A stretch of 64,000 nt of DNA. Source: Aphanomyces cochlioides. Taxonomy: Eukaryota > Oomycota > Saprolegniomycetes > Saprolegniales > Verrucalvaceae. Below the pieces are notes generated by a model. It saw only the letters and a program-made list of their open reading frames with translations, was not told the origin of the DNA and made no database searches. The stretch covers positions 1,488,001 to 1,552,000 of the forward strand of contig JAHQRK010000020.1 of the NCBI GenBank assembly GCA_019828595.1, in the 5' to 3' direction. A program made the translations under genes and the position numbers. Positions 278-57,869 of the stretch are shown here, piece after piece. How positions within the stretch are numbered: position 1 is the first letter of the stretch; the number at the start of each line of letters is the position of its first letter.

Positions 278-292
278 TCCGGTCATAGCTCA
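278..292 (+). repeat. Target-site duplication: 5' fragment of tRNA-Tyr, left flank of LINE A1
   Basis: TCCGGTCATAGCTCA is base -1 to base 14 of the tRNA-Tyr gene. The tRNA is cut off here by the 3' end of LINE A1, and the same 15 bases recur at 7618-7632 on the other side of the element. It is therefore both a tRNA stump (A box broken) and the left target-site duplication. Confidence 0.95.
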
Positions 293-449
293 CTGCAATG
301 GGGAGGTATATTAATAGACTTTCAATATCTACTAATACTAATATTGCCTACTAACGGCTCATCCCACTTCCAAATGCTTCAGCAGATTTTCTACTTTGGG
401 CTTTGGAGTACAGCGATTTTTGACTTGTTGAATAAATACTTGGGGCTTG
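293..449 (-). other. 3' UTR and conserved 3' tail of family A
   Basis: This untranslated end of LINE A is kept in all seven A copies, including the 283-bp A5. Three blocks are shared with family B (8817-8894): CAATGGGGA at the very end, ACTAATATTGCC, and GGCTCATCCCAYTTCCAA (all + strand). There is no poly(A). The conservation across families that otherwise differ suggests this is the RNA structure the reverse transcriptase recognises; that role is inferred. Confidence 0.7.
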
Positions 450-3400
450 TTAATTTGGGGCTGAAGGTTGGAGCGCGAGCAAAGTCGGGTACTTGGCTAC
501 CAGTGGGCGATAGACAGGTTGTCTATGCAAAGTATTGATTGCTGAAATTGCTTCCACTCGTTGAGGGCTGTCAACTTCTTGGAGGCGAAGCCATCTGCGG
601 ATCGATGCATGCCATCGGATGAAGCTGACTTCTTGCCAAATTTCTGGCGGAGGCGGCTCCTTCGATTCGAACTTGGCGGCGTTGTGCGTTGTCCAAATAT
701 AGTGAAGGTTGGAAGCACACAGAAGAGCCCAGAGCACAAACAGTATGTCTTGAAGCTGGCTACCGCGTTCGTTGACTTGAAAGCGGTCGATGTTGGTGAT
801 GGCAGTCCAATCGAAATTGACACCGAAGCATCGCCAAGCGGTCGCGTGAAAACGCCAAAGGGGATACACGCGAGAGCAGGTGTGGAAGGCGTGGTGTTGG
901 TTCTCCGGTGCGTCGCAATTGGTATAGACACAGCAAATTACGTCTGGCTGCTGAGGTTGCAAGTAGAACAAGCGCGAGTTGACAGGCAGCATGTTGAACA
1001 ACAGTCGAAACCAAACGTCGCCATGGAGGGGAGGCGGCCAACGGCATGTTTTGCGGATGAGTCGCACGTAGGTCGCAATATCTTGTTGCTCGACGCGGGA
1101 CGATGTCGCCACTGGGTGCGGTTTTCCATCCGAAGGGGCGTGATGCGCCAAACGTGATACGAGTCGCTTGGGCCAACGCTCGAAGGATAGCAATTGATCT
1201 TTGAAAAGTGCCTTGAAAGGGTGACTTGTTGTATCGATATCGGTCAAAGCAGTTCCAGTTCGAACGCCAGACGTGCGGAGGACTTGGTCGAATATCTTGG
1301 TGAGGTGGCTATAAACTTGACCAGCACGTTCGGGTGCTGCAAATCCCATCGCGCCGTTCGCTTGTAACGTCACTTGTGCCGCACGGTTGTTGGATGACAG
1401 TCGATCAATAAACGCAGCTCTTGTAGGCCATGTCCCTTGCCGTGTCAAGAAGTCTTTGAGGCAGTGGAAACCGTTTTGAGACGCATGTCTACACCATCGA
1501 CGACACAGAGCAGTCTTCACGACATTTGATGTAGCACCCGCAGGACCAACTTGCAGAGCGGGGTAGGATGTCAGCCACACGGGGAGGTTCAAAAGTTCTT
1601 CGAGGCTTGGTGGCGAAGCGGTTCGCTTGGCCATAGGTGTGGCGGCCCATTGATGCCAAATGTCGTGCCAAAGAGGATGCAGCTCCCACAAAAACAACCA
1701 CTTGGAGCTGTGGTTGGGGAAGTACGTGAGAAAGTCGAACGGGTGGGTGTCGCGATACAGCTTGTTCATGACACGGGAAAATTGTCGCTTGACAAGCAAC
1801 TTCCATGGGGCAAATGTGTTGGGTGAATTGGGCTGCATCAAGAGTTGGAGCCGCAGCAGTCGCTGAGTCCGAAGCTTCGAAGCCACATGCGGAATACCGA
1901 GGCCGAGTTTTTGATCGAACTGCCACTTGCGGCAAATAGTTGAGCGATGATGGTCGGTGATTTGCGTCTTCCGACCAAGGATGTACTTGTTGACCATTCT
2001 TTGCCAAACGGCAACCATCGTTGGAGGCACATACACTGCAGCCGTGACATGCCATAACAACGACAACAACATGGTCGATACGATGAGTTTGCGGCCTTGG
2101 ATGGTTCGCGCACGACTTCCCCACGTTTGAAACGCAGCCAGAAACTTGTCGTTCAGTTGCTGGACTTGAAAATCGCGCGGCAGTCGGTGGCCAAAGAGAA
2201 TACCAAGGTATTTCACTGGCTTCTCGCTCGGCAAGACGTTCAAGAGGCCACCATCGTCGATGTCTTCGATATCGAGATTGTTGTTGAGCGCCAAAGTCAT
2301 GCACTTGGCAACGTTGAGACGAGCTCCAGACACAGAGCAAAAGTCTTCGACAATTGCCATTTGCTCGACCGCCGCTTGGAGGGATGACGAGAGTAGAGTC
2401 GTGTCGTCGGCAAAGTAGATGCTCGTCAGTGAGTCTCCATTTGGAAGGGGAATACCAAAATCAGGAGATCCGCGTAGCATTTCGCCGAGTGGCTCGAGGT
2501 AAAGTACGAAGAGCATGCACGATAGGGGGCAACCTTGCTTGACTCCGCGGGTAGGCCGTATGGTAGGGCCAAGACCGTCGTTGAAAATGATCTGGACCAG
2601 AGGCGTATTGTAAAGCAACTGAACCCAAGACACAAATGTGGGACCGATGTTCATCTCCTTGAGTACGTCGAAGAGAAAGCCTTGGTCAACCATATCGTAT
2701 GCCTTGGAAAAGTCGAGAAACGTCGCGTAGTAGTCGTGGTCTTCATTGGTACAGAAAGTCTGCAATGCTTGTACCAGCATCACGTGGTCGTGCAAGCGAC
2801 GGCCAGGGACAAAACCAGCTTGGCTTGGGTGAGCGAGGTATGGGGCAACTTGTGCAAGACGGTAGGCCAGCGCCCGCGATAGAATCTTGACTTCAACCGA
2901 CATGAGAGTAATCGGCCGATAGTTGCCAGGGTCGCCTCTGTCTCCAGCCTTGAACAAGAGCGCCACTGCACTTCGGCGTTGTTGGAGCAGGAGGTGACCG
3001 TGATGGGTGAGTTGGTAGTTGAACACCTTGAGCAGGATTTGGGCGAATACGTCCGGGGAGATTTGAAAGAAAGCTGCAGGCCAGCCGTCTGAACCAGGAG
3101 ACTTGTTCGGGTTCATAGACTTGAGCGCGCCGCACAGGTCTTCCGCCGTGAGAGGACTTTCCAGAGCGTCGCGCTGTTCTTGAGTGAGACGTCGAGTAAT
3201 GGCTCGAATGATAGCTCGGCGACGGGCCCGATTCAACGGTGGTTGGTCTCTTGGAGTGACCATGATGTTTTTCCAATGAGACGTAAAACCAGCCTTGACT
3301 TCAGACGGGTCAGTCGACGTTGCACCGTTGATTGTCACGGACGAGAGCGGCACTTTGATCCCCTTGGGTCGACGAAAAAAGTGACTGGTACCTCGCTCGT

Positions 3401-4604
3401 TGACGTTGGCGTGAAAGTCGAATTGCTGATCCAGGTTGAACTGTCGGTACTCGCTGCGGGCAGTGTCAAGGGCTTGACGGGCGGTATTAACAATGGATGT
3501 CTCAACGAGTCCCATGTCGAATGCTCGGCGGGAAGTAAGCCACTTCATCTTGAGGCTGTTGAGTGTGTACTTCATCGAGTCAATGTACTGGCGATGACTG
3601 ACTTGGAGACGCTTCTTCATTCTCTTCAACCAGCCGTACCACTTTGCGCCGAAGTTTTGAGTGTCGTCTGCGCGCATCTCGTCCAAAAGTTGATTGGCTT
3701 CGGCCTTGATCGCTGCGACTACTTGAGGGTTCTTTAAGAGCTCACGGGGGAGGCGCCAGTAACTTCGGTCGGGAGCTCGCTGCTCGCAGGAGAGGACCAC
3801 TTTGTGTTCCATGTGGTCGCCTGCAAAGCTGCTTGGGGAATAGCTTGAACGTGCGTACGTTTGAGCGACGATATCTTGGTCCACAAACAGGTAGTCGAGG
3901 CGGTTGCTTCGACCAGGGCCGCTGTAAACGCGCTCGTTGGGGTGGTGCATCCTCCACGCATCGATAACACCAAGTGCTGAAAGCCAGGCAATGCATTCCG
4001 CCTTACCAGCGTTGTGGTCTTGGCGAGGTCGAGTCGCGTCCAGATGCTCCTCCAGGGGTAAGTTGAAATCGCCTCCGACAAAGTGAATGCTGTCGTCTTC
4101 AAAGTCGCGAGGCAGATCGTCGAAAAACGGTGCTCGAGAGTGAGCGATAACCGGGGCATAGACGTTGTGAAAGTACACAGGAACGCCGTCCCACTGAGTT
4201 CGAACAACCATGTATCTTCCAGGTCGGTCATGGGTGGTCAAGTGTTGCAGGTCGAGGAATCCAGGCATGGATCCATGGAAATACGATGCCACACCGCAGC
4301 GCCGATTGTTGAGTGAGTCGACGCGATCAGTGCGGAGATCGTTGGTGAAGAGCTTGTATTTGCCAACGCCTACTTCGTTGTTGAGGTGGAGTTGGAAGGT
4401 TTCGAGATGTTTGATGTTATTGATTTTGGTTTCTTGAAAGAAAACGGCTTGGGTCGGAATTTGGAGTCGCCGCGCCACAAGATGTCCGTTGTCTTTCAGC
4501 CCATTGAGGTTGGCAGTGGTCAGTTCGAGTATGGGGAACTTGGTGAAGAGACCGGCCGCGACCACCTTAGCCACGGAACGCGACAGACGTTGCGTTCGCA
4601 ACAT
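450..4604 (-). CDS. LINE A1 ORF2: AP-type endonuclease / reverse transcriptase
   Basis: This 1,384-residue polyprotein would nick the tRNA-Tyr gene and reverse-transcribe the element RNA from the nick. Visible motifs in order: endonuclease start TTANLNGLKDNG near residue 30, catalytic QETK near 55, GGDFNLP near 176 and the terminal GDHMEH near 262. The reverse transcriptase follows, with KSPGSDGWPAAFF near 505, FKAGDRGDPGNYRPI, the FLDFSKAYD block, GVKQGCPLS and the catalytic FADD near 731. Near 1,225 is a zinc-binding C-x4-C-x7-H-x4-C motif followed by a Trp, as in the zf-RVT domain of plant-type LINEs. No RNase H domain is evident. The frame is open throughout. An AUG exists at 4602-4604, 38 bases upstream of the ORF1 stop, in the +1 frame relative to ORF1; whether it is used is uncertain because families B and C lack it. 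Confidence 0.93.
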   Translation of the reverse strand: MLRTQRLSRSVAKVVAAGLFTKFPILELTTANLNGLKDNGHLVARRLQIPTQAVFFQETKINNIKHLETFQLHLNNEVGVGKYKLFTNDLRTDRVDSLNNRRCGVASYFHGSMPGFLDLQHLTTHDRPGRYMVVRTQWDGVPVYFHNVYAPVIAHSRAPFFDDLPRDFEDDSIHFVGGDFNLPLEEHLDATRPRQDHNAGKAECIAWLSALGVIDAWRMHHPNERVYSGPGRSNRLDYLFVDQDIVAQTYARSSYSPSSFAGDHMEHKVVLSCEQRAPDRSYWRLPRELLKNPQVVAAIKAEANQLLDEMRADDTQNFGAKWYGWLKRMKKRLQVSHRQYIDSMKYTLNSLKMKWLTSRRAFDMGLVETSIVNTARQALDTARSEYRQFNLDQQFDFHANVNERGTSHFFRRPKGIKVPLSSVTINGATSTDPSEVKAGFTSHWKNIMVTPRDQPPLNRARRRAIIRAITRRLTQEQRDALESPLTAEDLCGALKSMNPNKSPGSDGWPAAFFQISPDVFAQILLKVFNYQLTHHGHLLLQQRRSAVALLFKAGDRGDPGNYRPITLMSVEVKILSRALAYRLAQVAPYLAHPSQAGFVPGRRLHDHVMLVQALQTFCTNEDHDYYATFLDFSKAYDMVDQGFLFDVLKEMNIGPTFVSWVQLLYNTPLVQIIFNDGLGPTIRPTRGVKQGCPLSCMLFVLYLEPLGEMLRGSPDFGIPLPNGDSLTSIYFADDTTLLSSSLQAAVEQMAIVEDFCSVSGARLNVAKCMTLALNNNLDIEDIDDGGLLNVLPSEKPVKYLGILFGHRLPRDFQVQQLNDKFLAAFQTWGSRARTIQGRKLIVSTMLLSLLWHVTAAVYVPPTMVAVWQRMVNKYILGRKTQITDHHRSTICRKWQFDQKLGLGIPHVASKLRTQRLLRLQLLMQPNSPNTFAPWKLLVKRQFSRVMNKLYRDTHPFDFLTYFPNHSSKWLFLWELHPLWHDIWHQWAATPMAKRTASPPSLEELLNLPVWLTSYPALQVGPAGATSNVVKTALCRRWCRHASQNGFHCLKDFLTRQGTWPTRAAFIDRLSSNNRAAQVTLQANGAMGFAAPERAGQVYSHLTKIFDQVLRTSGVRTGTALTDIDTTSHPFKALFKDQLLSFERWPKRLVSRLAHHAPSDGKPHPVATSSRVEQQDIATYVRLIRKTCRWPPPLHGDVWFRLLFNMLPVNSRLFYLQPQQPDVICCVYTNCDAPENQHHAFHTCSRVYPLWRFHATAWRCFGVNFDWTAITNIDRFQVNERGSQLQDILFVLWALLCASNLHYIWTTHNAAKFESKEPPPPEIWQEVSFIRWHASIRRWLRLQEVDSPQRVEAISAINTLHRQPVYRPLVAKYPTLLALQPSAPN
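4556..4604 (-). other. ORF1/ORF2 overlap and probable recoding or reinitiation site, A1
   Basis: On the coding strand the ORF1 stop sits in CGTGGCTAAGGTGGTCGCGG (4556-4575). ORF2 reads the same bases in the +1 frame as GTG-GCT-AAG-GTG-GTC. Family B has the same block with one change, and family C keeps CTAAGGT and the downstream GCGGCC. Conservation of the stop context across such distant copies suggests a functional translational junction. Confidence 0.55.
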
Positions 4605-7566
4605 CTCCCAGCATGAGTGTCTGAGTGTCGGGTTGGAACATCACTTGGTTGTCGAAGGTGGGGTCCAGGGAGCCAGCCTCATGGAATTCCAGGATCGTGG
4701 TCAAGACGTATCGCGACTTCTCGTCTTCGCCGGCATACAACGTTTCCATGATATTCCAAATCAAGAGGCCGAAGCTCGTGTCAAGCAATATGGCAGATAG
4801 CGATACGCCCGACAAACAGCGGGAGCCCAAATGAGAAGCCAGTGCAGTGACCGGGTACTTGGTAGAGGCCACGATCGCAGCATCACTGTTGTAGTACGTT
4901 GGAGCATGAATGGCCAAGAGAACTTCTGCCACAGCCAACACTTCTTCCAGGTCGCCGCGGTGGAGGGAAATCTCGTCGCCGTCAATGGTAGTATCGATGA
5001 AGTCGATGTTCTTGAATAGCTCGATGTTGCTGAAGATGGCTTGAACGTGCTCGCGGGTCATACGCACACCCCACGTCAATGAGTACAGCTGGGAGAACGG
5101 TTTGTCTCCACCCCAAGTCGCTCGAAGCCACCGATGGAGGAGGCGTTGTCTCACAAAGTACTCAAAGCATGCACGGTCTTCATCAAAAAGTCGGTGCAGT
5201 TGCAAGCCAAATTCAATCGGGGAACGCTCGAGATGGCTACACAGCATGTCGACGCGGCCGTCGTTGATGAGTTGGGCAAGGTTGAACGAGCTGTTGGTCA
5301 CTGCATCTTCGACTTGGGTTGAGAGATGCAATGGAACTTTGGCTGTCTTGGTGTCGAGGTCTTGTAGTTCGGCGAGAATTTCGTCAAGAGACATTTCTAT
5401 GCGCTTGGGAACGCCATCTTGGATCTTGGTGCCGCCGACAAATTGACCGGACGTAGGGAGGTGGGGAGGGTCATCCGAGACGTCCAGCTTGGGTACAATC
5501 GTTGAGATCTTGTAATCGCCAAACTGAGCAACGTGTTCCTCGGGGTTGACACACACACGTTCGTCGAGGGCTTCAAACATGTTGGGCGAAATCCAAGAGC
5601 GGCCATGCTCGGGGGAATCCACTTGCTGTTGCGTCTTCTTGCGCTTGCCTCTCGACGCCTTGACGCCAGTCCACTGCGGAGGGTTGGCTTGCGCAGTTTT
5701 CCGACGTTTTGGCGCCTTGGGAGTCGAAGAAGGCGGGTTGGTTGGGCTGGGAGCTGGCTTGTTCAATCCATATTGGCGGGACGTTGCATCAAGGTCCAAA
5801 CGAACCAAGTTCTTGTCACGAAAATACCACCCTTGACCGTACACGCGGAGACAACGGCCCTTGAAAAGAATTTCTTCGACGAGACGGCCGTCGCGCTGTA
5901 TGGTCGTTGGTACGGAGGTTCCTTCAAAGTAAAGGCGGTACCGAGAGCTCGCCATACCGCTTGAAGAGGAAACGTTGGGGTAGGAGCCCCACAGGAAGCG
6001 TGGCTCCAACTTGGTCATGACGTCGAAGATCAGGCGCTCTTCGTCTTGATCTTGAAGGCCTTGAGGGATGTCCATGAAAAATCCGCCGAGGACGTGCGGA
6101 ACGTTCATCGTGAAGTGTTGGGACGAGCCATCTCGAGCGACTTGAATCTTAAACGCGATGCCTCGCAGCTTCGTCATCGCTTCGTGAGAGGCAACACCCC
6201 ACTTGAGCATGCGGTTCGGGATGTCCTTCTCGCATCTCACAATGTCAGCAATCGCAGTGTCGAGGCCGAGGGCTTGGTTGTCGAAAAGGATCGATGCCAT
6301 GGCAGCTGAAACATCGATGGTCTTCGTGTGTGCACCCGTGGGCATCTGCAACCAGCCGACGATGCCGCGCGCCGAGTGCTTCTGGATCGGGAGGGTGTCT
6401 TCAAACGTGAGGGTTCCAGCAGCACGCTTGCGAAGGAGGGGTTCGAGTTCCTCCATCGTGGGCTGGTAAGGAGCAACGTCCTTGGTCTTGATGGCCTTGG
6501 CAGACTGAGACCGCTGTTGCGCTTGGAAGGCCCATACGTCGTTGGGGGCCTGGCGGTTGTTGGGTTGGCCACGGCCAGGTGTCTGGGCTCCGCCAGATTG
6601 AGAAATGTTTTCCAAATGCGATCCGGGTGAAGCCTGAGACGATGGCTGGCGGACTGAGTGAGAGTCCGAGTCGTGCGTCAGACCAACACTCAAGCGTGCG
6701 TCAGAGGCTTGGTCTTGTCCGGACCCTGTCCCATGGTGGACAGAGTCACACGTTTGACCTTCACTCGCGTTGGACTTCGAGAAGCTTCCATGGGTGACTT
6801 GGTCTTGAGTATTCCCATGACCAACACTGGCCACAGGGTTGTTCGCGATTGTTCCAGATCTTGCCCGATGATTCTTCGAGAAGAGACCATCACTCATGGA
6901 GCGACTAGTCTCGATGGGATCTTGACCTGTCGCCAGAGTGGACTTGTCGCTCGGGGGATTCTTCGAGAAGGGACCTTCACTCAGGGATGGACTGTTCTCG
7001 AATCTTCCTTGACATGTCGTCATGTTGACGTCGGTGCTTGAGCGAGTCTTCGAGAAGCCACTATCACTCGTCGAGAGAACATTCTCGAAAGGAACAGAAC
7101 CCAACGGAGTCTTGCCAGGCAAGCCACCATCACTCACGATGGACGTGGTTGATGGAGATTCTTCGGGCAAGGTCGTTGACGTCATGAGCACATCTTCCGA
7201 GGTTGGAACGCCGTCTTGCCAGGCTTCGTCGCAAGTGTCAGAGGTCGTTGGATCATTCGCGGGATCGCAAGCCTTCGTCGAGCGAGTCACAGGCAAGGGT
7301 TCAAAACGGCGCGGTTTCGAAGGGGTTGCACGTTGACGTGGAAACGGAACGCGCGTTGGAGTAGGGAGCGGATTCGTAGACGCGTCATGATGCGAAGCGT
7401 TGGAAGCATCGTCGACGTCCTCTTCCAACGACGACGCCATGTCGGTATCGCTTGGGGATGGGTCAGCAACGACGATGACGTCCATATCGCTGGGGCTGGA
7501 CGCCGAGGGAGAGAACGCGGAGGAGCAAGATGGGGCACGAGGGTTGGTCGAGCGGGTAGCAACCAT
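4567..7566 (-). CDS. LINE A1 ORF1: element RNA-binding-type protein
   Basis: The start is ATG 7564-7566 (MVATRSTN), because family B starts at the aligned place (MATTRSSS). An upstream in-frame ATG at 7624-7626 lies in the antisense tRNA and is treated as incidental. The product has 999 residues. The N-terminal third is Ser/Thr/Pro-rich, probably disordered, with a 29-residue repeat containing FSK(N/T). Residues about 405-590 form a conserved middle domain, from the GWLQM motif to a VYGQGW motif; it could be RRM-like as in other LINE ORF1 proteins, but I cannot show this. A basic stretch (RGKRKK) follows. The C-terminal part (about 870-940) contains a conserved EVLAVAEVLLAIHAP block also present in families B and C. 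The likely role is binding element RNA; there are no clear CCHC knuckles. It overlaps ORF2 by 38 bases. Confidence 0.85.
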   Translation of the reverse strand: MVATRSTNPRAPSCSSAFSPSASSPSDMDVIVVADPSPSDTDMASSLEEDVDDASNASHHDASTNPLPTPTRVPFPRQRATPSKPRRFEPLPVTRSTKACDPANDPTTSDTCDEAWQDGVPTSEDVLMTSTTLPEESPSTTSIVSDGGLPGKTPLGSVPFENVLSTSDSGFSKTRSSTDVNMTTCQGRFENSPSLSEGPFSKNPPSDKSTLATGQDPIETSRSMSDGLFSKNHRARSGTIANNPVASVGHGNTQDQVTHGSFSKSNASEGQTCDSVHHGTGSGQDQASDARLSVGLTHDSDSHSVRQPSSQASPGSHLENISQSGGAQTPGRGQPNNRQAPNDVWAFQAQQRSQSAKAIKTKDVAPYQPTMEELEPLLRKRAAGTLTFEDTLPIQKHSARGIVGWLQMPTGAHTKTIDVSAAMASILFDNQALGLDTAIADIVRCEKDIPNRMLKWGVASHEAMTKLRGIAFKIQVARDGSSQHFTMNVPHVLGGFFMDIPQGLQDQDEERLIFDVMTKLEPRFLWGSYPNVSSSSGMASSRYRLYFEGTSVPTTIQRDGRLVEEILFKGRCLRVYGQGWYFRDKNLVRLDLDATSRQYGLNKPAPSPTNPPSSTPKAPKRRKTAQANPPQWTGVKASRGKRKKTQQQVDSPEHGRSWISPNMFEALDERVCVNPEEHVAQFGDYKISTIVPKLDVSDDPPHLPTSGQFVGGTKIQDGVPKRIEMSLDEILAELQDLDTKTAKVPLHLSTQVEDAVTNSSFNLAQLINDGRVDMLCSHLERSPIEFGLQLHRLFDEDRACFEYFVRQRLLHRWLRATWGGDKPFSQLYSLTWGVRMTREHVQAIFSNIELFKNIDFIDTTIDGDEISLHRGDLEEVLAVAEVLLAIHAPTYYNSDAAIVASTKYPVTALASHLGSRCLSGVSLSAILLDTSFGLLIWNIMETLYAGEDEKSRYVLTTILEFHEAGSLDPTFDNQVMFQPDTQTLMLGDVANATSVAFRG
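6770..7135 (-). repeat. Degenerate 87-bp coding repeats in ORF1 of family A
   Basis: In the Ser-rich region of ORF1 the motif S(D/E)xxFSK recurs at 87-bp spacing (near 7055, 6968 and 6881), with a weaker copy near 6783. The unit is 29 codons. The same repeats exist in A2 and A3. Family B ORF1 lacks them and is shorter. Confidence 0.6.
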
Positions 7567-7603
7567 ATTGTCAGATAGCGTAGAGTGGTACTGCGGGGTA
7601 GCT

Positions 7604-7617
7604 GGCAAATTGGAAAC
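7604..7617 (-). promoter_or_regulatory. 5'-terminal motif of LINE A1, possible core promoter
   Basis: The first 14 element bases read GTTTCCAATTTGCC. They are identical in family B, and family C has TTT at bases 2-4 and TTTGCC at 9-14 in the same register. CAATTTGC fits the oomycete FPR core-promoter consensus MAWTTTNC as I recall it. With a 5' UTR of only about 50 nt, an initiation signal anchored at the 5' end is plausible. Function is inferred. Confidence 0.4.
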
Positions 7618-7618
7618 T

Positions 7619-7715
7619 CCGGTCATAGCTCAGTTGGTAGAGCGTTTGACTGTAGTGGAAAGTTGTATTGGATTCAGTATGGCTTCAGAAATCAAATGGC
7701 CACCGGTTGACCGGA
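7619..7715 (+). pseudogene. tRNA-Tyr(GUA) with 11-bp T-arm deletion
   Basis: The gene matches the intact copies except that 11 bp are missing between two CCGGTT repeats, removing the T-loop and the 3' half of the T-stem. The B box (GGTTCGATTCC) is destroyed, so TFIIIC recognition and folding should fail. Anticodon GTA, the 35-nt intron and the acceptor ends are present. Its first 14 bases are the right-hand target-site duplication of LINE A1. A collapse between short direct repeats explains it; an assembly error is possible. Confidence 0.9.
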
Positions 7716-8816: not shown

Positions 8817-8894
8817 ATGTCAATGGGGAGTCTATTTGTAGTTAATGTAAACTACAAACTAATATTGCCCGAAGGCTCATCCCATTTCCAACTG

Positions 8895-10109
8895 CTAGGC
8901 TGAATTGGAAATCAATTTGGCTTTTCGTTTTCTTGATTCGCTTCGACGTTGGGACTTCGATTTCTTCGGTGTTTGTAAGCTAACACGGCGAATATGTCGG
9001 ATAAAACTGACTCTTGGCATCTGACCCAGGGGGTATACATTTTCATTGTCTTGGATCATACATAGACTTCGGTCTATGCAGCGCTTGTATCGCTTGGCGA
9101 GGACCCAGCAATGGGATGTTGAATCAGTGACAGAAACAACCAAGAATTCTCCGTCAGGCTCATCCAATATCGCTCTACAGATATCACGAATTGGATCACC
9201 CACCGATTGCTTGAGCAGTTGACGGGAGAATATGGCGTCGTTGTAGTGGAATCCATGTGTGTATGCCAGCTTGAGAAAATCATGCATCTTGGAAGGGGGA
9301 ATGCCCGCGTCTTGAGGAACTCCATGGGCCTCTTTGAAACCCGAAATGACTTCTTCGCTGAGCTCAAAATTGGAGACATTCAAATTGGTAGCAACGATTC
9401 GGATTGCAGCCGCAAGACAAGATTTGTCACTGTTGTTGCCAATTTCTAGCCACAGAGGATCCATCGCTCGAAATTCAGCAAGCGTTGGGGCGAGACCAGT
9501 GTTCGTGAGGAAGTGGGCTCCAGCTTGTCGCCATCGTTGGTACATCGCCACGGCTTCTTGACACCCGCTGAGGTCTTTTTCGTCGAACCAGTCTTTGTCG
9601 AGTCCATCCGGGCGTTGAAACTTCCAGTTGACTTGGTATTGAATAGTTGAAATTCGATTTCGCATTGATGCCACTTCGCGGTGGTCATCGATAAACAACA
9701 CTTCATCGATGTCATCATCGTCGGTTGGAATTCGCAGAGTGCGTGGGCGGTTGGTTGGGGCATCAGCCGTTGTCGCATTCGTTTGTGGCCTGGCTGGAAC
9801 AGAAACATCGTCCAATAGATCCATGAGGGATGGTAGCGGAGATCCATTGTCATTGCCCAAGGGGTCAAATTCGCGGGTGCTCGAGTTCAAAATGGACATA
9901 TCAGGAGTAAATTGGTGTTCTTCAGTTGTAACTGGACTTGAAGGACGAGTGTCGGATGATTGCGTCATAGGTACAGAAATCTCAACTCCATCCACTCCCT
10001 CAAGAGTAATCCCTGGAGACATCGAGCTCCCCACACCTCGTGTAGTTATGGGTCTCGACGTCTGCGCGGGGAGTACGCTATCGGCAGTGAAAATCGTTGA
10101 AGCTTCCAT
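8895..10109 (-). CDS. LINE B1 ORF3: chromodomain-like protein with papain-type Cys/His pattern
   Basis: A third ORF downstream of ORF2, absent from family A. The first AUG is at 10107-10109 (404 residues); the frame is open to 10292 but without an AUG. Residues about 133-191 resemble a chromodomain: EVLFIDDHRE, then YQVNWKF, DKDWFDEKDL and CQEAVAMYQRW, matching the Y-x-V-x-W, W-x-x-E-x-x-L and C-x-x-x-x-x-Y pattern. The C-terminal half has Cys in SDKSCLAAAI (about 231), His in SHCWVLAK (about 331) and Asp/Asn in IQDNENV (about 352). The order Cys-His-Asp with HxWV suits a papain/OTU-type (clan CA) fold and not Ulp1, which has His first. The tail is a basic, NLS-like stretch. Possible roles are chromatin targeting and processing or de-ubiquitination of a host or element protein; both are inference. 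Function unknown. Confidence 0.7.
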   Translation of the reverse strand: MEASTIFTADSVLPAQTSRPITTRGVGSSMSPGITLEGVDGVEISVPMTQSSDTRPSSPVTTEEHQFTPDMSILNSSTREFDPLGNDNGSPLPSLMDLLDDVSVPARPQTNATTADAPTNRPRTLRIPTDDDDIDEVLFIDDHREVASMRNRISTIQYQVNWKFQRPDGLDKDWFDEKDLSGCQEAVAMYQRWRQAGAHFLTNTGLAPTLAEFRAMDPLWLEIGNNSDKSCLAAAIRIVATNLNVSNFELSEEVISGFKEAHGVPQDAGIPPSKMHDFLKLAYTHGFHYNDAIFSRQLLKQSVGDPIRDICRAILDEPDGEFLVVSVTDSTSHCWVLAKRYKRCIDRSLCMIQDNENVYPLGQMPRVSFIRHIRRVSLQTPKKSKSQRRSESRKRKAKLISNSA

Positions 10110-10322
10110 TGTTGTTGTCTTGGGTAAAATCAAAAGTGAGTCTTGGAGAATTGTTTTGAGATTCTCACTGAACTTATTCTCAGTTGCGACACTTGAGTCA
10201 GGCACGATTTGATTGGGCAGTGAAATGTTTTGCGCGGATCGTGAGTGATGGTCGCCAGGATTCCCAATCAAAAATTCAGCTGGGATACCAAGTCAAGAAT
10301 ACAGCTGGGGCTTGTAATCAAA

Positions 10323-16946: not shown

Positions 16947-16951
16947 TTCGT

Positions 16952-46327: not shown

Positions 46328-46372
46328 GGTGCGCGGGGTACCTTACTTTGGCAGTTGACTTGAGTGGTTGAC

Positions 46373-46401: not shown

Positions 46402-46479
46402 ATGTCAATGGGGAGTCTATTTGTAGTTAATGTAAACTACAAACTAATATTGCCCGAAGGCTCATCCCATTTCCAACTG

Positions 46480-47694: not shown

Positions 47695-47907
47695 TGTTGT
47701 TGTCTTGGGTAAAATCAAAAGTGAGTCTTGGAGAATTGTTTTGAGATTCTCACTGAACTTATTCTCAGTTGCGACACTTGAGTCAGGCACGATTTGATTG
47801 GGCAGTGAAATGTTTTGCGCGGATCGTGAGTGATGGTCGCCAGGATTCCCAATCAAAAATTCAGCTGGGATACCAAGTCAAGAATACAGCTGGGGCTTGT
47901 AATCAAA

Positions 47908-50900
47908 TTACTGGTGTTCAACTCGAAAAGACATGGGATATTTGTCGAATAGCTCGTTGTATCCAGCTTGAGAGAAAAGGACTGAGACCGCTTCGATGAT
48001 GTTTCGATAGTCGAAGTCGTCAGGCGAGAGCAAACGAATTGTTCGCCTGATGGAAGCTGTCCAACTGACAAATATAATCTCGTTCCATAGTAAAATCGGT
48101 AGAGGCTTTTTGCCATCGAACTTGGTTGCATTTCTTTGAGTCCATAAGGAGTACGTGATGGAAGCACAAAGGAGGGACCATAATTTGAATAATGCGTCAT
48201 GCAGGTGTTTTCCTCGCGTATTGGTCTTGAAGCGACTGATATTCGTGGTGGTTGCCCAATCAAACTTAACACCATAAGCACTCCATGCTCGCTCTTGGAA
48301 CATCCAAACTTGATGTACATGATGACATGTATGGAAGGCATGATGAAAAGTCTCAACATCCGAGCAATCTTCGTAGACACAACAAATAGCGTCAGGGTTT
48401 TGGATCTGCATATAGGAAAACCTCGAGTTGACGGGTAACATCTTCATGTGCAATCGAAACCATACATCGCCTTGAACAGGTGGAGGTAGATTACACACAG
48501 TACGAATGAGACGGATATACTTTGCTATGTCTTTGTCAGTTCTTGTCGTAGTCTTCATAGGATGTATAGCTTCAGTCTGGGGGCGTGGTAAGCTAAATGC
48601 ACCACGTTTTTCTTGGGCCACGACTCGAAAGGTAAATCAGCATCCTTGATTCTGGCTGTAAACGGATGTTGACAAGTCGGGACATTAGGCAGTGGCGACC
48701 CTTGCCGAATGTCAAACGATCGAACAACTTTGTCGAAGATTCGTGTGAGTTGATTGTAAATGTCGGTTGTGCGGGGCAATGTGGCAAAGTCCATGACTCC
48801 GTCCTGGTTTAGACAAACTTGGGCAGCTGGATTGTTCGACGACATTCGGTTCACGAACATGGTCTCTGTTGGCCAAGCACCATGTGGGGTCAGGAAATCC
48901 TTCAGGCATCTGAGACCATTTTTGGCCCCGTGGCGGCACCAGAGACGCATGTCTTCATCTTTCACGACATTTGCTAACATCTTAGCAGAGCCGAAGTGCA
49001 TTGCGTCGTAGGCTGTGAGCCATACCGGGAGGTTCAGTACCGTGTCGAGATTTGGAGGCACGCCGATTCGCTTACTCATGTCTGTGGCTGACCAATGTTT
49101 CCAAGTATCAAGCCACAGTGGATGGAGCTCGCGAAGCAAAAGCCACTTGGAGCTTGCATTTGGGTAGTATGAAAGAAAATCGAATGGGTGACTGTCTCGG
49201 AATAACTGATGTATTGTGCGGCTAAATTGTCGCTGTACAAGTTTCTTCCACACCAGGATTTCACCAGGAGAATCGGCAGACATAAAGAGCTGTAAACGAA
49301 GAAGGCGTTGTGTTCGCAGCCTCGATGCAATGTGGGGGATTCCCAAGCCTAAAGGCTTGTCGTACTGCCACCTTCTATGGATTGAGGGACGGTAACTCTC
49401 ATCGAGCTGGGTCTTGCGGCAAAGTATGAACTTGTTTAACATTTGTTGCCACGTAACGACCATAGCAGGAGGCACAGGTACAACGGCTGTTACATGCCAC
49501 AACATAGATAGCAACATCGTGGAGGCAATAAGCTTTCGGCCCTGCAATGTCCTTGCTCGTTTACCCCATAGTTGAAAGGACGAGATGAATTTGTCGTTGA
49601 GTTTTTGAAGTTGGGAGTCAGCCGAAAGTCGATGGCCAAAGAGAATACCAAGATATTTCGTACACTGACCAGTTGGTACGATATTGAGCAAACCATCTGC
49701 TTCGATGTCTTCTTGATCGAGATGGTCGTTGAGAACCAAGGTCATGCACTTGGAACGATTCAGACGGGCCCCTGAAGCCGTGCAAAACTCTTCCACAATT
49801 GCCATTTGCTCCACAGCAGATTGCAGCGAGTTTGATAACAACGTCGAGTCGTCGGCAAAGAATATACTCGTAATAACTGAGTCGTGGGGGAGAGCGATTC
49901 CAAGATGTGGGGACGCTCGGAGCATCTCACCAAGAGGTTCTAGGTATAGGACGAACAGTAGGCATGATAAAGGACAGCCTTGTTTGACGCCTCGGGTAGG
50001 TCGGATCTTAGGGCCAAGCTCGCCATTGAAGATGATCTGGACCAAAGGTGAGTCGTACAAAAGAGCTACCCACGCAATGAAACCATCACCAGTGTTGACT
50101 TCTCTCAGCACATCAAGCATAAATTCTCGATCCACCATGTCGTACGCTTTCGAAAAGTCAAGGAATGTTGCATAGTAGTCGTGATCTTCGTTGGTGCAAA
50201 ACGTTTGCAAAGTTTGCACAAGCAGGACGTGGTCATGCAGCCGTCGTCCTGGGACAAAGCCAGCTTGACTTGGGTGAATGAGATGAGGAGCTACTGTAGC
50301 CAGGCGATAAGCGAGGGCACGGGATAGTATCTTCACCTCCACTGACATGAGTGCAATAGGTCGGTAGTTTCCAGGATCGCCTCGATCACCAGCTTTGAAG
50401 AGCAGAGCCACAGCACTACGCCTTTGTTGAAGGAGTAGTTTACCGTGGTGGTGAAGTTGGTAGTTGAAGACCCTGACCAGGATTTCGGAGAAAGCCTCGG
50501 GTGCTACTTGGAAGAAGGCCGCTGGCCATCCATCAGGACCAGGAGACTTGTTTGGACTCATTGTCTTGAGAGCACTACACAGCTCGGCTGCTGTGATAGG
50601 TCTGTCTAGCTCCTCGCGTTGCTCATCATTGAGTTTGCGGGAGATAAACCGTATGACAGCCCTCCGCCTCGCCCGGTTTAGCCGAGGTTGTTCGCCACGA
50701 GTGGTAGTCATTATTGCCTTCCAATGGGCAGTGAATCTCTCTTTGATAGTGGTAGGATCAGACACGGGAATGCCATCGACGTTGACCGTCGTGATAGGAA
50801 CCTTGAGTCCTTGTGGCCTTCGAAAGAAGTGGCTCGTACCGCGTTCGTTGATATTTGCATGAAAATCGAATTGCTGATCCATGCGGTATTGGCGATATTC

Positions 50901-52022
50901 GATTCTTGCGTTTTCCAGCGCCAACCGAGTAGCATCAACGGCAGCCTCGTCGAGCAAGCCAGCTTCGTATGATCGTTGTGCAGATATATGTCTCAGTTTT
51001 AGGCTTTTGAGCTCGTGTTGCATGGATTGGAGGTGGTGGCGATGACATTGTTGTAAACGTCGTTTGATTCGCTTAAGCCACCCATACCAGACGGCTCCCA
51101 TGTTTGTCGATTCGTCCGCACGCATCTCAGAGAGGAGGTGTGATGCCTCTTCTCGTATGGCTTTGATGACGAGCGGGTCTTTGAGTAGCTCTCTCGGCAG
51201 CCTCCAGTAGCCACGGGTCGTGGGTGTATGACTTGTAGAGAGAACGACAGTGTGCTCCAAGTGATCTCCGGCAAAGCTGTTAGTGGCATATTTTGAGCTT
51301 TGGTAGGATTGGGCAACTAAATCTTGGTCAATGAACCAGTAGTCCAGACGATTGCTTCGTCCTGGACCGCTTGCCAGTCTTTCGTGAGGGTGGTGTAGGC
51401 GCCACGCGTCGATGACTCCTAGTTGTGACAGCCAGGCAAGACATTCGACTTTTCCAAAGGTGTGATCTTGCCGTGGTTTGGAAGCATCGAGGTGTTCGTT
51501 GACAGGAAGGTTAAAATCTCCCCCAACCAGGTGTACACTGTTAGCTTCAAAAGCGCGAGGGAGACTGTCAAAGAAACTAGCCCGATGTTGAGGGGTAACT
51601 GGCGCGTAAATGTTGTGGATGTAGACTGGGGTTTCATCCCAGTACGTTTTGATCACAATATAACGGCCAGGGATATCGTGTTGTGATAAGTGCACCAGGC
51701 TTGAGAATCCAGGCATCGATTCGTGAAAGTATGATGCAACGCCACATCGACGGTTGTTCAAATTGTCCGTGCGGGTTGTTCGTAAGTCGTTGGTAAAAAG
51801 TTTGTACTTGCTAACACCCACTTCGTTGTCGAGGTGAGTGTGGAAAGTGTCAAGATGTTTTGCGTTGTTGAGTTTCGTTTCTTGAAAGAGAACAGCTTGT
51901 GTCGGTTTCCGAAGACGCCGTGCAACAAGATGTCCGTTTTCTTTCAGCCCATTGAGGTTGCTCGTCGTCACTTCAAGTATGGGGAGCTTGACAAAATGAC
52001 CAGCCGCGACCACTTTAGCCAC
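47908..52022 (-). pseudogene. LINE B2 ORF2, frameshifted near the C-terminus
   Basis: Homologous to B1 ORF2. One G is missing from a G-run at 48579-48583 (six in B1, five here). The break falls after the reverse transcriptase, so the endonuclease, FADD and thumb region stay open for about 1,150 codons. The zinc C-x4-C-x7-H-x4-C domain is put out of frame. The same non-AUG start problem applies. The homopolymer context means a sequencing error is possible. Confidence 0.88.
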
Positions 52023-54480
52023 GGGAAGCGATCGTTGTGAGATCCGCTAGGTCGCCGTGAATTAAAGTAGGTTCGCTTGGGTGAAACATGACTTGATTGT
52101 GGAGAGTGATATCCAAATCGTTGCTTTCGTGTAGTTGAAGGATTTTTGTCATGATGTGACACATCGATTCTCCGTCGCCAGTGTACATGAATTCCATTCT
52201 GTTCCATATGTGGAGGCCAAGGTCGGTGTACATCAGGAGTGACATGAGCGTTTCGGAGGATAGACTGCGTTTACCAAGGCGAGAGGGTAACGCTGTCACT
52301 GGACTTTTTGTTGAGGCCAAAATTGCCGCATCGCTATTGAAATATAGTGGAGCATGAACTGCCATCAATACTTCTGCAATGGCCAGCACTTCTTCGACTT
52401 CAACTCTGTTGAGGACGATGTCATCATCGGTGATGATTGCCTCGATGAGTGGGAGGTTGTTGACCATCTTCTGGTCACTGAACACCGAGATCACGTGGTC
52501 GTGAGTGATTGGAGTGCCGAATGTTGCCTCGTAGAGCTGACCAAAAGATTTTGTGCCACCACCAGACGCTCTTAGCCAACGATTAAGCAGTCGAAGACGA
52601 ACAAAGTATTCGAAGCTGTCACGATTGGAGACAAAAATTTGGTGCAGTTGCAGTCCAAATTCGATTGGCGCACGTTCTAGATGGATGCAGATCGTGTCAA
52701 CACGCCCGTCCGTAATCAATTTCAATAAGTTGAAGGAATCGTGCGCTAACGCTTCCTTAACTTGGGCCGGGATATGTTGTGGTGCGTTTTGAGCCTTGGT
52801 GTCAAGGTCGTTGAGCTCGGCAAGTATGGCATCGAGAGACTTCTCAAACCTTTGGATTGAGCCCTCGTGGGGTTTGATCCCGCTAATGAACTCTTCAGCG
52901 GCAACGTGCACCTTGTCACCAGATTTGAGTGTCAGCTTTGGAACAATTACTTTGACAGTGGTGTTGCCAACTGTCGTTTCGTGTTCCTCGGGCTCAACAT
53001 TAGCGCGTTCGTCCAGAGCCGCAAACATGTTCGGGGAGATCCAAGGACGATCAGGAGCTGGGATTGAGCCAGCGGAGATTGGGGTTTTCTTTCTTTTGCC
53101 TGTAGTTTGAACTTCAGTCCATTCCTTGTTGCTGTCTCGGGTCGTTTTCTGCCGTTTGGCAGTGGATGTCGAGACAGCGGCGTCTCCCCGTGGGCGGTGA
53201 GGGGTTGCGTGAAGTCCATGTTGGGTGGCGATTACATCGAGGTCAAGGCGCGCGAGCTTCTTGTCACGGTAAAACCATCCTTGACCAAACACGCGGAGGC
53301 ACCGACCCTTGAAAATGAATTCTTCAATTGATCGACCGTCATTGTGCATAGATTCGGGTATAGCTGTCCCTTCAAAATACAAGCGATAACGAGAGCTAGC
53401 CAAGCCAGTCGTCGAGGAAACTGTGGAGTATGAGCCCCACAAAAAGCGCGGCTCAAGCTTTGACATGATGCTGAACATGAGACGTTCTTCATCCTGTCCT
53501 TGGAGACCAGATGGGATATCGATGAAATATCCATCAAGTATATGGGGCTCAGTCATGACAAATCTCTGAGAGCTGCCATCCTTTGCCACTTGGATCTTGA
53601 GAGAGACTCCACGCAGCTTTTTAAGAGCATCTTCAGAGGCTATGCCCCACTTGAGAAGACGATTGGAGACATCTTTCTCGCACTTGATGACATCGACAAA
53701 TGCATCGTCCAAATCAAGCGCTTGGTTGTCAAACAATAGAGATGTCATTGCCTTGGAGATGTCGATGTATTTGGTGTATTGGCCAGTGGACATTTGTAGC
53801 CAGCCAACAACATCTCTGGGGGAATGTTTTTGGATGGGCAAAGTGTCGTCAAACGTGAGAGATCCTGTCGCGCGTTTTTGCAACAAGGACGCCAGCTCGG
53901 CCATAGTTGGTCGATAATGGCCGACGTCACTGTTCCGCTGAGCCTTGGCAGATTTAGCTCTCTGCTTGGCTTGGAATTCCCACACGCATTCGTTTGGCTT
54001 TTTGGTCGAGGTGTTCGACTCGGGTGGTATTGGCACGGAGCGTGTTGTAGCAGGAGGCGAGGCATCGATTTGAGCTTCAGGCTCCATTTCCACATCAACA
54101 TTGGTGTCGCGAATCGATTGGTCTTCAGAGCGCGGCTCCAGCTCAGTGGCTTGAGTAATCGGTGGGGTATGTGGTTGGTTGTTGTTGGAGATATCCTCTA
54201 TGTCTTCATCAGGCATCGGAGAAACATTATCCTTGTTGACAGTTTTGTCGCTGGTACGAGCGCTTGGTAATGGCACGCGACCACCGAGTGTAGCAAGACG
54301 TATGGGCGGTTGAGCAGCAGGCGGAGTTTTGTCGATGATTGAGTCAGGTTCATCGTCATCATCATCGTCAACAATCACCTCCATGATACTAGAAGCGTCC
54401 GAGGTATTGCGAAAGGGAGAGACAGAAAAAGCTGAGGGCTTGTGTGCATGAGCACGGCTGGAAGAGCGGGTAGTCGCCAT
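52015..54480 (-). CDS. LINE B2 ORF1
   Basis: 821 residues from ATG 54478-54480, the same start as B1. In this copy the antisense-tRNA ATG (54534-54536) is out of frame with ORF1, which supports the inner AUG as the true start. Middle domain, GKRKK and C-terminal conserved block are all present. Intact. Confidence 0.85.
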   Translation of the reverse strand: MATTRSSSRAHAHKPSAFSVSPFRNTSDASSIMEVIVDDDDDDEPDSIIDKTPPAAQPPIRLATLGGRVPLPSARTSDKTVNKDNVSPMPDEDIEDISNNNQPHTPPITQATELEPRSEDQSIRDTNVDVEMEPEAQIDASPPATTRSVPIPPESNTSTKKPNECVWEFQAKQRAKSAKAQRNSDVGHYRPTMAELASLLQKRATGSLTFDDTLPIQKHSPRDVVGWLQMSTGQYTKYIDISKAMTSLLFDNQALDLDDAFVDVIKCEKDVSNRLLKWGIASEDALKKLRGVSLKIQVAKDGSSQRFVMTEPHILDGYFIDIPSGLQGQDEERLMFSIMSKLEPRFLWGSYSTVSSTTGLASSRYRLYFEGTAIPESMHNDGRSIEEFIFKGRCLRVFGQGWFYRDKKLARLDLDVIATQHGLHATPHRPRGDAAVSTSTAKRQKTTRDSNKEWTEVQTTGKRKKTPISAGSIPAPDRPWISPNMFAALDERANVEPEEHETTVGNTTVKVIVPKLTLKSGDKVHVAAEEFISGIKPHEGSIQRFEKSLDAILAELNDLDTKAQNAPQHIPAQVKEALAHDSFNLLKLITDGRVDTICIHLERAPIEFGLQLHQIFVSNRDSFEYFVRLRLLNRWLRASGGGTKSFGQLYEATFGTPITHDHVISVFSDQKMVNNLPLIEAIITDDDIVLNRVEVEEVLAIAEVLMAVHAPLYFNSDAAILASTKSPVTALPSRLGKRSLSSETLMSLLMYTDLGLHIWNRMEFMYTGDGESMCHIMTKILQLHESNDLDITLHNQVMFHPSEPTLIHGDLADLTTIASRG

Positions 54481-54531
54481 GTTGTCAGTTTTGGACAGTG
54501 GTACTGCGGGGTAGCTGGCAAATTGGAAACT

Positions 54532-54639
54532 CCGGTCATAGCTCAGTTGGTAGAGCGTTTGACTGTAGTGGAAAGTTGTATTGGATTCAGTATGGCTTCA
54601 GAAATCAAATGGCCACCGGTTCGATTCCGGTTGACCGGA
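54532..54639 (+). tRNA. tRNA-Tyr(GTA): tRNA-Tyr(GUA), intron-containing, intact
   Basis: Intact gene after three successive insertions (A5, C, B2). Intron 54569-54603; A and B boxes perfect; C1-G72 acceptor with discriminator A. Confidence 0.97.
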
Positions 54640-55738: not shown

Positions 55739-56211
55739 CTGCAATGGGGAGGTATATTAATAGACTTTCAATATCTACTAATACTAATATTGCCTACTAA
55801 CGGCTCATCCCACTTCCAAATGCTTCAGCAGATTTTCTACTTTGGGCTTTGGAGTACAGCGATTTTTGACTTGTTGAATAAATACTTGGGGCTTGTTAAT
55901 TTGGGGCTGAAGGTTGGAGCGCGAGCAAAGTCGGGTACTTGGCTACCAGTGGGCGATAGACAGGTTGTCTATGCAAAGTATTGATTGCTGAAATTGCTTC
56001 CACTCGTTGAGGGCTGTCAACTTCTTGGAGGCGAAGCCATCTGCGGATCGATGCATGCCATCGGATGAAGCTGACTTCTTGCCAAATTTCTGGCGGAGGC
56101 GGCTCCTTCGATTCGAACTTGGCGGCGTTGTGCGTTGTCCAAATATAGTGAAGGTTGGAAGCACACAGAAGAGCCCAGAGCACAAACAGTATGTCTTGAA
56201 GCTGGCTACCG
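55739..56211 (-). mobile_element. LINE A6, strongly 5'-truncated
   Basis: 473 bp: 3' UTR and the last 105 or so codons of ORF2 (stop at 55896). The zinc motif is lost. It ends after GCTGGCTACCG (+). Confidence 0.93.
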
Positions 56212-56226
56212 TCCGGTCATAGCTCA
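56212..56226 (+). repeat. Target-site duplication shared by LINE A6 and LINE A7
   Basis: The 15-base tRNA start between two truncated A copies. Confidence 0.95.
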
Positions 56227-56660
56227 CTGCAATGGGGAGGTATATTAATAGACTTTCAATATCTACTAATACTAATATTGCCTACTAACGGCTCATCCCA
56301 CTTCCAAATGCTTCAGCAGATTTTCTACTTTGGGCTTTGGAGTACAGCGATTTTTGACTTGTTGAATAAATACTTGGGGCTTGTTAATTTGGGGCTGAAG
56401 GTTGGAGCGCGAGCAAAGTCGGGTACTTGGCTACCAGTGGGCGATAGACAGGTTGTCTATGCAAAGTATTGATAGCTGAAATTGCTTCCACTCGTTGAGG
56501 GCTGTCAACTTCTTGGAGGCGAAGCCATCTGCGGATCGATGCATGCCATCGGATGAAGCTGACTTCTTGCCAAATTTCTGGCGGAGGCGGCTCCTTCGAT
56601 TCGAACTTGGCGGCGTTGTGCGTTGTCCAAATATAGTGAAGGTTGGAAGCACACAGAAGG
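56227..56660 (-). mobile_element. LINE A7, strongly 5'-truncated
   Basis: 434 bp: 3' UTR and about 92 codons of the ORF2 C-terminus (stop at 56384). It has the TTGATAGC variant also seen in A4 and A5, unlike its neighbour A6, so A6 and A7 are independent insertions and not a tandem duplication. It breaks after GCACACAGAAG (+). Confidence 0.93.
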
Positions 56661-56661
56661 T

Positions 56662-56769
56662 CCGGTCATAGCTCAGTTGGTAGAGCGTTTGACTGTAGTG
56701 GAAAGTTGTATTGGATTCAGTATGGCTTCAGAAATCAAATGGCCACCGGTTCGATTCCGGTTGACCGGA
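56662..56769 (+). tRNA. tRNA-Tyr(GTA): tRNA-Tyr(GUA), intron-containing, intact
   Basis: Intact gene with intron 56699-56733 and perfect internal promoters, rebuilt after A6 and A7. Its terminator is one T shorter than in the other copies. Confidence 0.97.
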
Positions 56770-57854
56770 CTCTCTTTTCACACTTTCATCTCCTTTCCTT
56801 CTCTTACCCTCTTTTTTCCACCTCTCTCTTCATCTTCACGACCTTTACACGTCCCAACATTTAGATTCATCACATTTACCTACACATACAACAACTACAC
56901 ACGATACAGTCTATTCCAATGCCACACAAACAAATCTACGCGTTTTCACCAGCATTCACGCGGCATGAGCCATCATTGCTCTGTCTTGTTTATTTCATGT
57001 GCAGGACACATTGGATGCACCCCAAAAGACATTACAATCAAGAGGAATCACATTCCCTTACATACGTTGTCGTGCCAGTATTTTTGTCGCTCGTCAATCT
57101 CTGACAAAAACTCCTCCACGTAGTAGCATAGAAGTGCCATTTTGAAGGTCCAGTGAGCATACATGCCCCACAGCTCCTACGTTTGCCTTTCGGATGTCTG
57201 TGACGGCTCAGTTCAAAGTAGTTCGGGGTTGACGTTTTAAGTGATGCCTCGCTAATTCATTGATCGAAATGAACAACACGTTATTTAAACATGGTTGCTT
57301 CTTGGAGGATAAAACAGTTTATGTTGGTTGTCCAAAATGAACAGCCTCATACTTTCCAACCTCTGAATTGAGGTATAATCCCTTTGCAAAAACAAATCGC
57401 AACGACGTTTGGCTTCAACACAGAGAGAGGAGGAAAAAGAGTCTACCAATCGCACACGCATACATTCCGTTCTTGTTGTGTCGTTGTTTTAGTCACTCAT
57501 ATTTTGGCAAGTCATATATACATTCTTTTTGGGGGGACACAGCACGAGGATTCATCGTGCTAACTTGGTGCGTGCTGTGTGGCCACGGTGCGGCGTTGGT
57601 ACGGAGACTTCTCTACAACACTGCATGAGGCAGAGCGAAGAGCTTGGTAAAGGGTAAGAGTGTTTGTAAATAAGAAGGTGGATGGAATGCGATGTTGTAG
57701 ATGAAATGGCAGAGACGAGTCTCTGAAAATGGGCTGGAAGATAGTGAGGACTATAAGAATACAGGGTGTAGGATGTGGTTGATGATGCCAGTTGGTAGTG
57801 TATGTAGATGACTAAAATAGTGTGTGAAAGGTCGGTGGCTGGAGGACGTATGTG
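56770..57854 (+). repeat. tRNA-Tyr unit spacer
   Basis: Non-coding spacer as elsewhere, with a single substitution near 57593 (GCGGCG for GCGACG). No gene seen. Confidence 0.85.
56775..56778 (+). terminator. Pol III T-run terminator, four T
   Basis: TTTT here, while the other copies have five. Four T can be a weaker pol III stop. Confidence 0.75.
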
Positions 57855-57869
57855 TCCGGTCATAGCTCA
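57855..57869 (+). repeat. Target-site duplication, left flank of LINE B3
   Basis: The 15-base tRNA start. Its partner lies beyond the window. Confidence 0.93.

Follow-up and report, generated by a model that had tools for sequence, protein, structure and literature searches.

Several mobile elements are already known to be tied to tRNA genes. The dictyostelid non-long terminal repeat (non-LTR) retrotransposons TRE5, TRE3, NLTR-A and NLTR-B, placed in L1 in a review table, are associated with many tRNA types in the accounts at hand (PMC5391098, PMC5911963, PMC5006619); NeSL-1_TV (tRNA-Pro), LIN15_SM (tRNA-Arg) and LIN25_SM (tRNA-Glu) are described as tRNA-specific, NeSL-related long interspersed elements (LINEs) (PMC4640811); and Dada-tIA, -tIB and -tY of Perkinsus marinus are described as inserting within the A box, including that of tRNA-Tyr, with TAGCTC as the duplicated target (PMC3706591). 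In the portions of this literature consulted, each tRNA-specific LINE either uses a single tRNA type or lies next to tRNA genes. Here we report three LINE families, A, B and C, within a stretch of the genome of Aphanomyces cochlioides, an oomycete (water mould) pathogen of sugar beet; "the window" refers to the whole stretch of 64,000 nucleotides analysed (G000:C13:1488001-1552000). The three families, even though the second open reading frames (ORF2) of B and C are just 43% identical, share one point within a promoter motif that many tRNA genes have in common; the 76 Mb hold about 500 insertions, and strays are few. The insertion pattern is confirmed as real and is wider than was first described: the A box, not tRNA-Tyr, is the site, and the gene is rebuilt, not broken.

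In the window, an intron-bearing tRNA-Tyr(gta) gene (anticodon type assigned by Aragorn) is repeated in tandem, with a unit of about 1.2 kb. The sequence GGTCATAGCTCA occurred 17 times in the window, all exact (0.21 expected, allowing ≤1 mismatch); at 11 of these an element 3' end followed right after CTCA, and at the other six the tRNA continued. Each of the 11 LINEs (seven A, three B and one C, all antisense to the tRNA) ran at its 3' end straight into tRNA positions 1-14, CCGGTCATAGCTCA, so that the insertion point is directly after A14 in the tRNA-Tyr A box, or within one base of it for family C. The A and B junctions were placed after A14 because the base that follows is C or A and not G; for C, insertion after A14 and after G15 are inseparable because the first base of the element here is G. 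A first-pass annotation made from the window alone had counted eleven elements in these three families at one antisense position after A14, and had read them as site-specific LINE insertions within the tRNA sequence, common to three families; both statements stood (11/11). The elements, their open reading frames (ORFs), target-site duplications (TSDs) and the tRNA sequences around them are as follows.

279..292, plus strand: half tRNA-Tyr (positions 1-14) at the 3' end of element A1, found by sequence pattern
8803, 18148, 25487, 33442, 37445, 37743, 46388, 55725, 56213 and 57856, plus strand: starts of the further half tRNA-Tyr copies
293..7618, minus strand: element A1, 7326 bp, TSD 15 bp, full-length-type 5' end
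4567-7629 and 450-4640, minus strand: ORF1 and ORF2 frames of A1
7619..7715, plus strand: tRNA-Tyr copy with an 11-bp T-arm deletion, without Rfam call
8817..16951, minus strand: element B1, TSD 16 bp, two extra bases at the 5' junction
14431-16962, 10323-14462 and 8895-10292, minus strand: ORF1 frame, ORF2 and ORF3 of B1
16952..17059, plus strand: intact tRNA-Tyr(gta) with intron, rebuilt by the TSD of B1 (Rfam, Aragorn)
18162..25486, minus strand: element A2, 7325 bp, TSD 15 bp
25501..32250, minus strand: element A3, 5'-truncated, 6750 bp, stacked on A2, TSD 16 bp
32251..32358, plus strand: intact tRNA-Tyr (Rfam)
33456..36249, minus strand: element A4, 5'-truncated, 2794 bp, TSD 15 bp
36250..36357, plus strand: intact tRNA-Tyr (Rfam)
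37459..37742, minus strand: element A5, 5'-truncated, 284 bp, TSD 15 bp
37757..46387, minus strand: element C1, 8631 bp, stacked on A5, TSD 15 bp
46402..54531, minus strand: element B2, 8130 bp, stacked on C1, TSD 15 bp
54532..54639, plus strand: intact tRNA-Tyr (Rfam)
55739..56212, minus strand: element A6, 5'-truncated, 474 bp, TSD 16 bp
56227..56661, minus strand: element A7, 5'-truncated, 435 bp, stacked on A6, TSD 16 bp
56662..56769, plus strand: intact tRNA-Tyr (Rfam)
57870..64000, minus strand: element B3, cut by the window end

The maximal TSD was 15-16 bp in all ten measurable insertions, the eleventh (B3) running off the window, and consisted of tRNA positions 1-14 plus 1-2 flanking bases. 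Since the TSD spans the 5' part of the tRNA, a full and re-targetable tRNA gene stands at the LINE 5' end, and the initial picture of a gene simply interrupted gave way to one in which the duplication rebuilds it at 10/10 sites. Four of the 11 elements (A3, C1, B2, A7) are stacked, with another LINE as the upstream neighbour of their tRNA half, and thus represent restored genes that were hit again. The other seven halves have array spacer upstream, and all seven of these units are occupied; the claim that every array unit is hit therefore holds in the window, which has five intact intron-bearing tRNA genes by Rfam, but not beyond it, as runs of intact tRNA-Tyr at 1.18-1.20 kb spacing are common elsewhere in the genome.

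The fixed 3' junction, constant-length TSD and variable 5' truncation are together those of site-specific target-primed reverse transcription (TPRT). With the element sense on the minus strand and its 3' end at the low coordinate, the TPRT scheme would have the first cDNA primed from the plus strand, ...CTCA-3'; orientation and duplication thus support the earlier proposal that the first nick falls on the tRNA-sense strand, at CTCA^G. No poly(A) was found at any of the 11 window 3' ends, and poly(A)-driven insertion was rejected on this ground (0/11); a CTCCCCATTG sequence near the 3' end is common to A and B, and ATTG is common to all three families. Copies in the window were 99.6-100% identical for A and 99.87-99.90% for B, so their spread was recent.

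The assembly (76.2 Mb, 94 contigs) was searched genome-wide with 3'-end patterns allowing ≤2 mismatches, and with extended patterns which add TAGCTCA and allow ≤2 mismatches over the whole pattern. There were 508 3'-end matches (A 225, B 203, C 80), and 500 of them lay directly after TAGCTCA or a close variant (A 221/225, B 203/203, C 76/80); among the 100 extended matches listed for A and the 100 listed for B, all were exact. The heptamers at the 76 C ends were TAGCTCA (60), TGGCTCA (8), TAGCTTA (3), TAGCGCA (2), TAGATCA (2) and TAGGTCA (1). The tRNA A-box consensus is TRGCNNA, and several of the C heptamers fit it. Copies with the same ends at unrelated sites, which the first-pass annotation had named as what would refute its reading if they were many, were tested for by this pattern, and only the eight remaining 3' ends lay beyond its limits.

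We examined 90 loci anchored on the 3' end, 30 for each family, taken from the first contigs listed and so not a random sample; to assign tRNA types, the seven bases that precede the heptamer were matched against the tRNA genes that Aragorn called. The A loci were Phe (15), Tyr (14) and Lys-UUU (1), with an A copy at tRNA-Asn also present outside this tally, and the B loci were Phe (19), Tyr (6), Thr (4) and Lys-UUU (1). The C loci were Ala (7), Asn (4), Thr (3), Cys (2), Lys-CUU (2, one of them a copy with a doubled tail), Tyr (1), Phe (1) and Trp (1); seven further C loci had an A-box-type heptamer with an acceptor half matching no intact fetched tRNA, and two were off target. The fetched loci thus cover ten tRNA gene types for eight amino acids (Tyr, Phe, Asn, Thr, Lys, Ala, Cys, Trp); tRNA-Tyr, which had been taken as the target, is one type among the ten, and Tyr-only targeting was rejected since the same point is used in many tRNA types.

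The 5' ends gave the complementary result. The 5' start common to A and B occurred 167 times, with TAGCTCA 6-14 nt further on in 141, and the 100 strings listed from these 141 were all tRNA 5' halves (Phe 30, Asn 23, Tyr 21, Lys-CUU 15, Ala 9, Thr 1, Lys-UUU 1). By sequence, A/B 5' starts abutting tRNA 5' halves indicate across the genome that this half is rebuilt.

Motifs and protein matches place ORF2 among L1-like proteins. Endonuclease (EN) motifs QETK, GDFN, NRLDY and DH and the reverse transcriptase (RT) motif FADD were present in all seven window copies long enough to hold them, and catalytic motifs of the apurinic/apyrimidinic endonuclease (APE) type lie at the ORF2 N-terminus, in relatives too. 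Pfam RVT_1 matched A (E 3.5e-34), B (8.7e-33) and the C piece (2.5e-26), as for a non-LTR-type RT; Exo_endo_phos was strong in C (4e-14), under cut-off in B (0.0035) and not listed for A, and zf-RVT matches in B and C were under cut-off. ORF2 was 64% identical between A and B, and 43% identical over 706 columns between B and the first C ORF2 piece. The best PDB match of the B and C ORF2 was human L1 ORF2p, and by this similarity ORF2 is classed as L1-like (APE endonuclease plus RT). The EN and RT motifs lie in different frames in A3, B3 and C1, so these copies look broken. No RNase H match was found by Pfam in the element ORFs. Protein relatives, among the matches listed, came from Aphanomyces, Thraustotheca, Globisporangium and metagenomes; one scan of viral contigs, of eight possible, gave no relative, and a plasmid tblastn gave one weak bacterial match (25% identity).

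Like TREs, the elements here form tandems at one tRNA gene (PMC5391098, PMC5911963, PMC5006619), and the 2-6 bp upstream of mature tRNA reported for NLTR-A of D. purpureum is near the position of their 5' ends; the dictyostelid elements, however, lie next to the tRNA, within windows that span several to many bases, and the passages at hand do not state insertion within it. TREs insert about 50 bp before or 100 bp after the tRNA, whereas the present junction is inside it, at A14. TREs are also described as ending in oligo(A), and NLTR-A and -B as carrying RNase H, whereas here neither poly(A) nor an RNase H match was found. The present elements are specific for tRNA genes as are the NeSL-related LINEs, but those, as described, have a restriction-like endonuclease (RLE) and use one tRNA type each (PMC4640811), while APE motifs at the ORF2 N-terminus and many tRNA types were found here; no separate search for a C-terminal RLE was made. 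The A box of tRNA genes, including tRNA-Tyr, is likewise the site of Dada, but these are described as DDE DNA transposons with a 6-7 bp TSD and a family-specific tRNA (PMC3706591); so short a TSD does not rebuild the tRNA 5' half, in contrast to the 15-16 bp TSD of the RT-encoding elements here. An APE endonuclease with a strict target in repeats recalls the Tx1 and R1 clades as described (PMC4640811), a likeness that carries no clade assignment.

L1 and Utopia elements have been described from oomycetes, in a paper whose main text, as available, does not contain the word 'tRNA' (PMC5348765), and LINEs are given as the most abundant repeats of A. euteiches (PMC8780586). In searches of the open-access PMC literature (Repbase, supplements and subscription papers lie outside it) we found no report of APE LINEs that use the A box across tRNA types with restoration of the gene. 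We know of no Tx1- or R1-clade LINE with a tRNA A-box target.

The position and orientation of the insertions, their 15-16 bp TSDs, the range of tRNA genes, the APE and RT motifs and the near-identity of the copies can be read from the DNA itself. From these we consider it probable that three related L1-like LINE families insert antisense at one A-box point of many tRNA genes, by TPRT following a predicted ORF2 nick at TAGCTCA^G. The ORF2 endonuclease would nick the tRNA-sense strand behind A14, and the element RNA would be reverse transcribed with the free 3' end at A14 as primer; the second strand would be cut 1-2 bp before mature tRNA position 1, and fill-in would copy the tRNA 5' half and so rebuild a full gene against the LINE 5' end. 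The rebuilt gene, with A and B boxes unchanged, could then be reused, giving stacked LINEs. The broader proposal, on which we are evenly divided, is that the A box serves as a homing site read directly by an L1-like endonuclease, with a nick spacing that rebuilds both tRNA gene and landing site, forming a self-renewing niche. It is likely that the elements increase in number at little cost to the host, and renew the site on which they land as they do so, because the TSD at each measured insertion carries the whole tRNA gene start; the duplication would explain how a parasite can live inside essential genes without their loss. If confirmed, the system would make it possible to test directly how specificity arises in an L1-like nuclease, and whether such elements are attracted or blocked by occupancy of an RNA polymerase III (Pol III) promoter.

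Several observations weigh against this account. Eight of the 508 3' ends (four A, four C) lay beyond the extended-pattern limits, and five of these, including all four A ends and the C end at C13:906269, were not read; the other excluded C ends were L098, which is on a TAGCTCA site, and L076 and L080, which are off target. A further 26 of the 167 A/B 5' ends, also unread, lacked TAGCTCA at 6-14 nt. Intact tRNA-His and tRNA-Val, which are without the motif, were found in 2/2 distinct contexts each, a small sample. The copies are not independent because arrays duplicate: there were 42 distinct 40-nt upstream contexts among the 90 loci (A 10, B 10, C 22), and for this reason only the direction is used of a chance figure of 10^-42.6 for the 100/100 result, which assumes independent copies. 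The octamer TAGCTCAG occurred 2,523 times genome-wide; a tRNA-like D arm after it or its place accounted for 923 and exact C halves for 59, leaving ≤1,541 outside a tRNA-like context, some of which may be tRNA genes with another D arm. None of these sites was used by the 60 A/B loci read or by the 100 listed A/B 5' ends; were the octamer enough, most insertions would be expected at such sites. Octamer-only targeting was therefore rejected, and the elements may require a Pol III factor. We infer that recognition either extends past eight bases, with the protein reading for example part of the D arm, or depends on the Pol III state of the gene.

These unused octamers favour the main rival to direct reading, guidance by Pol III factors, in which the ORF1 or ORF2 protein (ORF1p, ORF2p) binds TFIIIC or TFIIIB and the A box just happens to be where the endonuclease then cuts. 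There is precedent, as TRE5-A is reported to need the B box and its ORF1p to bind TFIIIB (PMC5391098, PMC5911963), but the reported TRE5-A window lies about 47 bp upstream (PMC5391098) and the position here is fixed to the base. Moreover, the heptamer is nearly always there, bound TFIIIC would cover the A box, and one off-target C copy has a TSD of normal length with no visible tRNA half; guidance is thus unlikely, although it is the alternative we take most seriously. That copy (L076) is very short and has a perfect 16-bp TSD, GGAGTCTCTATCTCCA, ending in TATCTCCA, which resembles TAGCTCA; no tRNA half was visible in the flank printed. Three things favour direct reading: the precision to the single base, a heptamer that hardly varies, and this off-target copy. 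ORF2p probably reads the A box directly, through contacts that extend past the octamer, and the open state typical of Pol III genes may help it.

Regular spacing in the genome raises a separate possibility, that a few insertions were multiplied by duplication and conversion of tRNA arrays and not by repeated targeting. Seven A 3' ends at G000:C34:3905707-3919816 alternate at 2.29 and 2.41 kb, and A/B pairs 425 bp apart occur three times on C24 (43934/44359, 138144/138569, 155986/156411); by sequence these represent insertions that multiplied along with their arrays, and distinct contexts number just 10/30 for A loci and 10/30 for B loci. Array growth explains copy number in part but not the shared site: A lengths in the window differ (7326 or 7325, 6750, 2794, 474, 435 and 284 bp), ten tRNA gene types on many contigs are involved, and there are 22 distinct contexts among 30 C loci; as a full explanation it is disfavoured and highly improbable. 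Assembly artefact, which had been raised for the array at the outset, is least credible of all. Long repeated arrays are hard to assemble, and some of this worry stays with the array; it is lowered by junctions that recur on many contigs and in tRNA types outside the array (e.g., Lys-UUU on C1 and C12), and by TSDs that surround elements with different 5' truncations.

Some minor features of the elements were also seen. In the C copy L098 (near 1500), TAGCTCA is followed at the junction by two copies of the terminal GTGTACA, as slippage at the onset of reverse transcription would produce. The 5'-terminal sequence is identical in A and B (A1, A2, B1, B2) despite the 64% ORF2 identity, and 5' ends may possibly have been exchanged between the two families. 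The ORF1 frames of A1 (7619-7629) and B1 (16952-16962), on the minus strand, are open into the antisense tRNA half, which at tRNA-Tyr sites gives them an extra in-frame ATG. ORF1 had no Pfam match, and its relatives were from Aphanomyces species and metagenomes; its structure model (mean predicted local distance difference test, pLDDT, 65) had no PDB fold match at E ≤0.001, the best being RRM proteins at E 0.03, a resemblance that is suggestive only.

Family B has a third ORF of 465 aa after ORF2 (8895-10292, 46480-47877 and 57948-59345, minus strand). A chromodomain-like stretch within it matched Pfam Chromo under cut-off (E 0.0019) on a 67-aa piece but not with the whole protein, and the C-terminal part is conserved and Cys/His-bearing, of unknown kind; the structure model (mean pLDDT 35) was too low for use. 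Three homologues were found, two of them named A. cochlioides (95% identity over 65%, and 100% over 36%). Protein P0100, a public A. cochlioides gene model, appears to join part of the B ORF3 to an A-like ORF2 C-terminal part, and would be either a chimeric element or a faulty gene model.

Large tandem tRNA arrays are known in oomycetes, and the P. infestans chromosomes are reported to hold 7,519 predicted tRNA genes, many of them arrayed (PMC9584435). Within the present array, the 11 bp missing from the tRNA-Tyr copy at 7619-7715 lie between two CCGGTT repeats in the T arm, and this copy is probably a dead gene.

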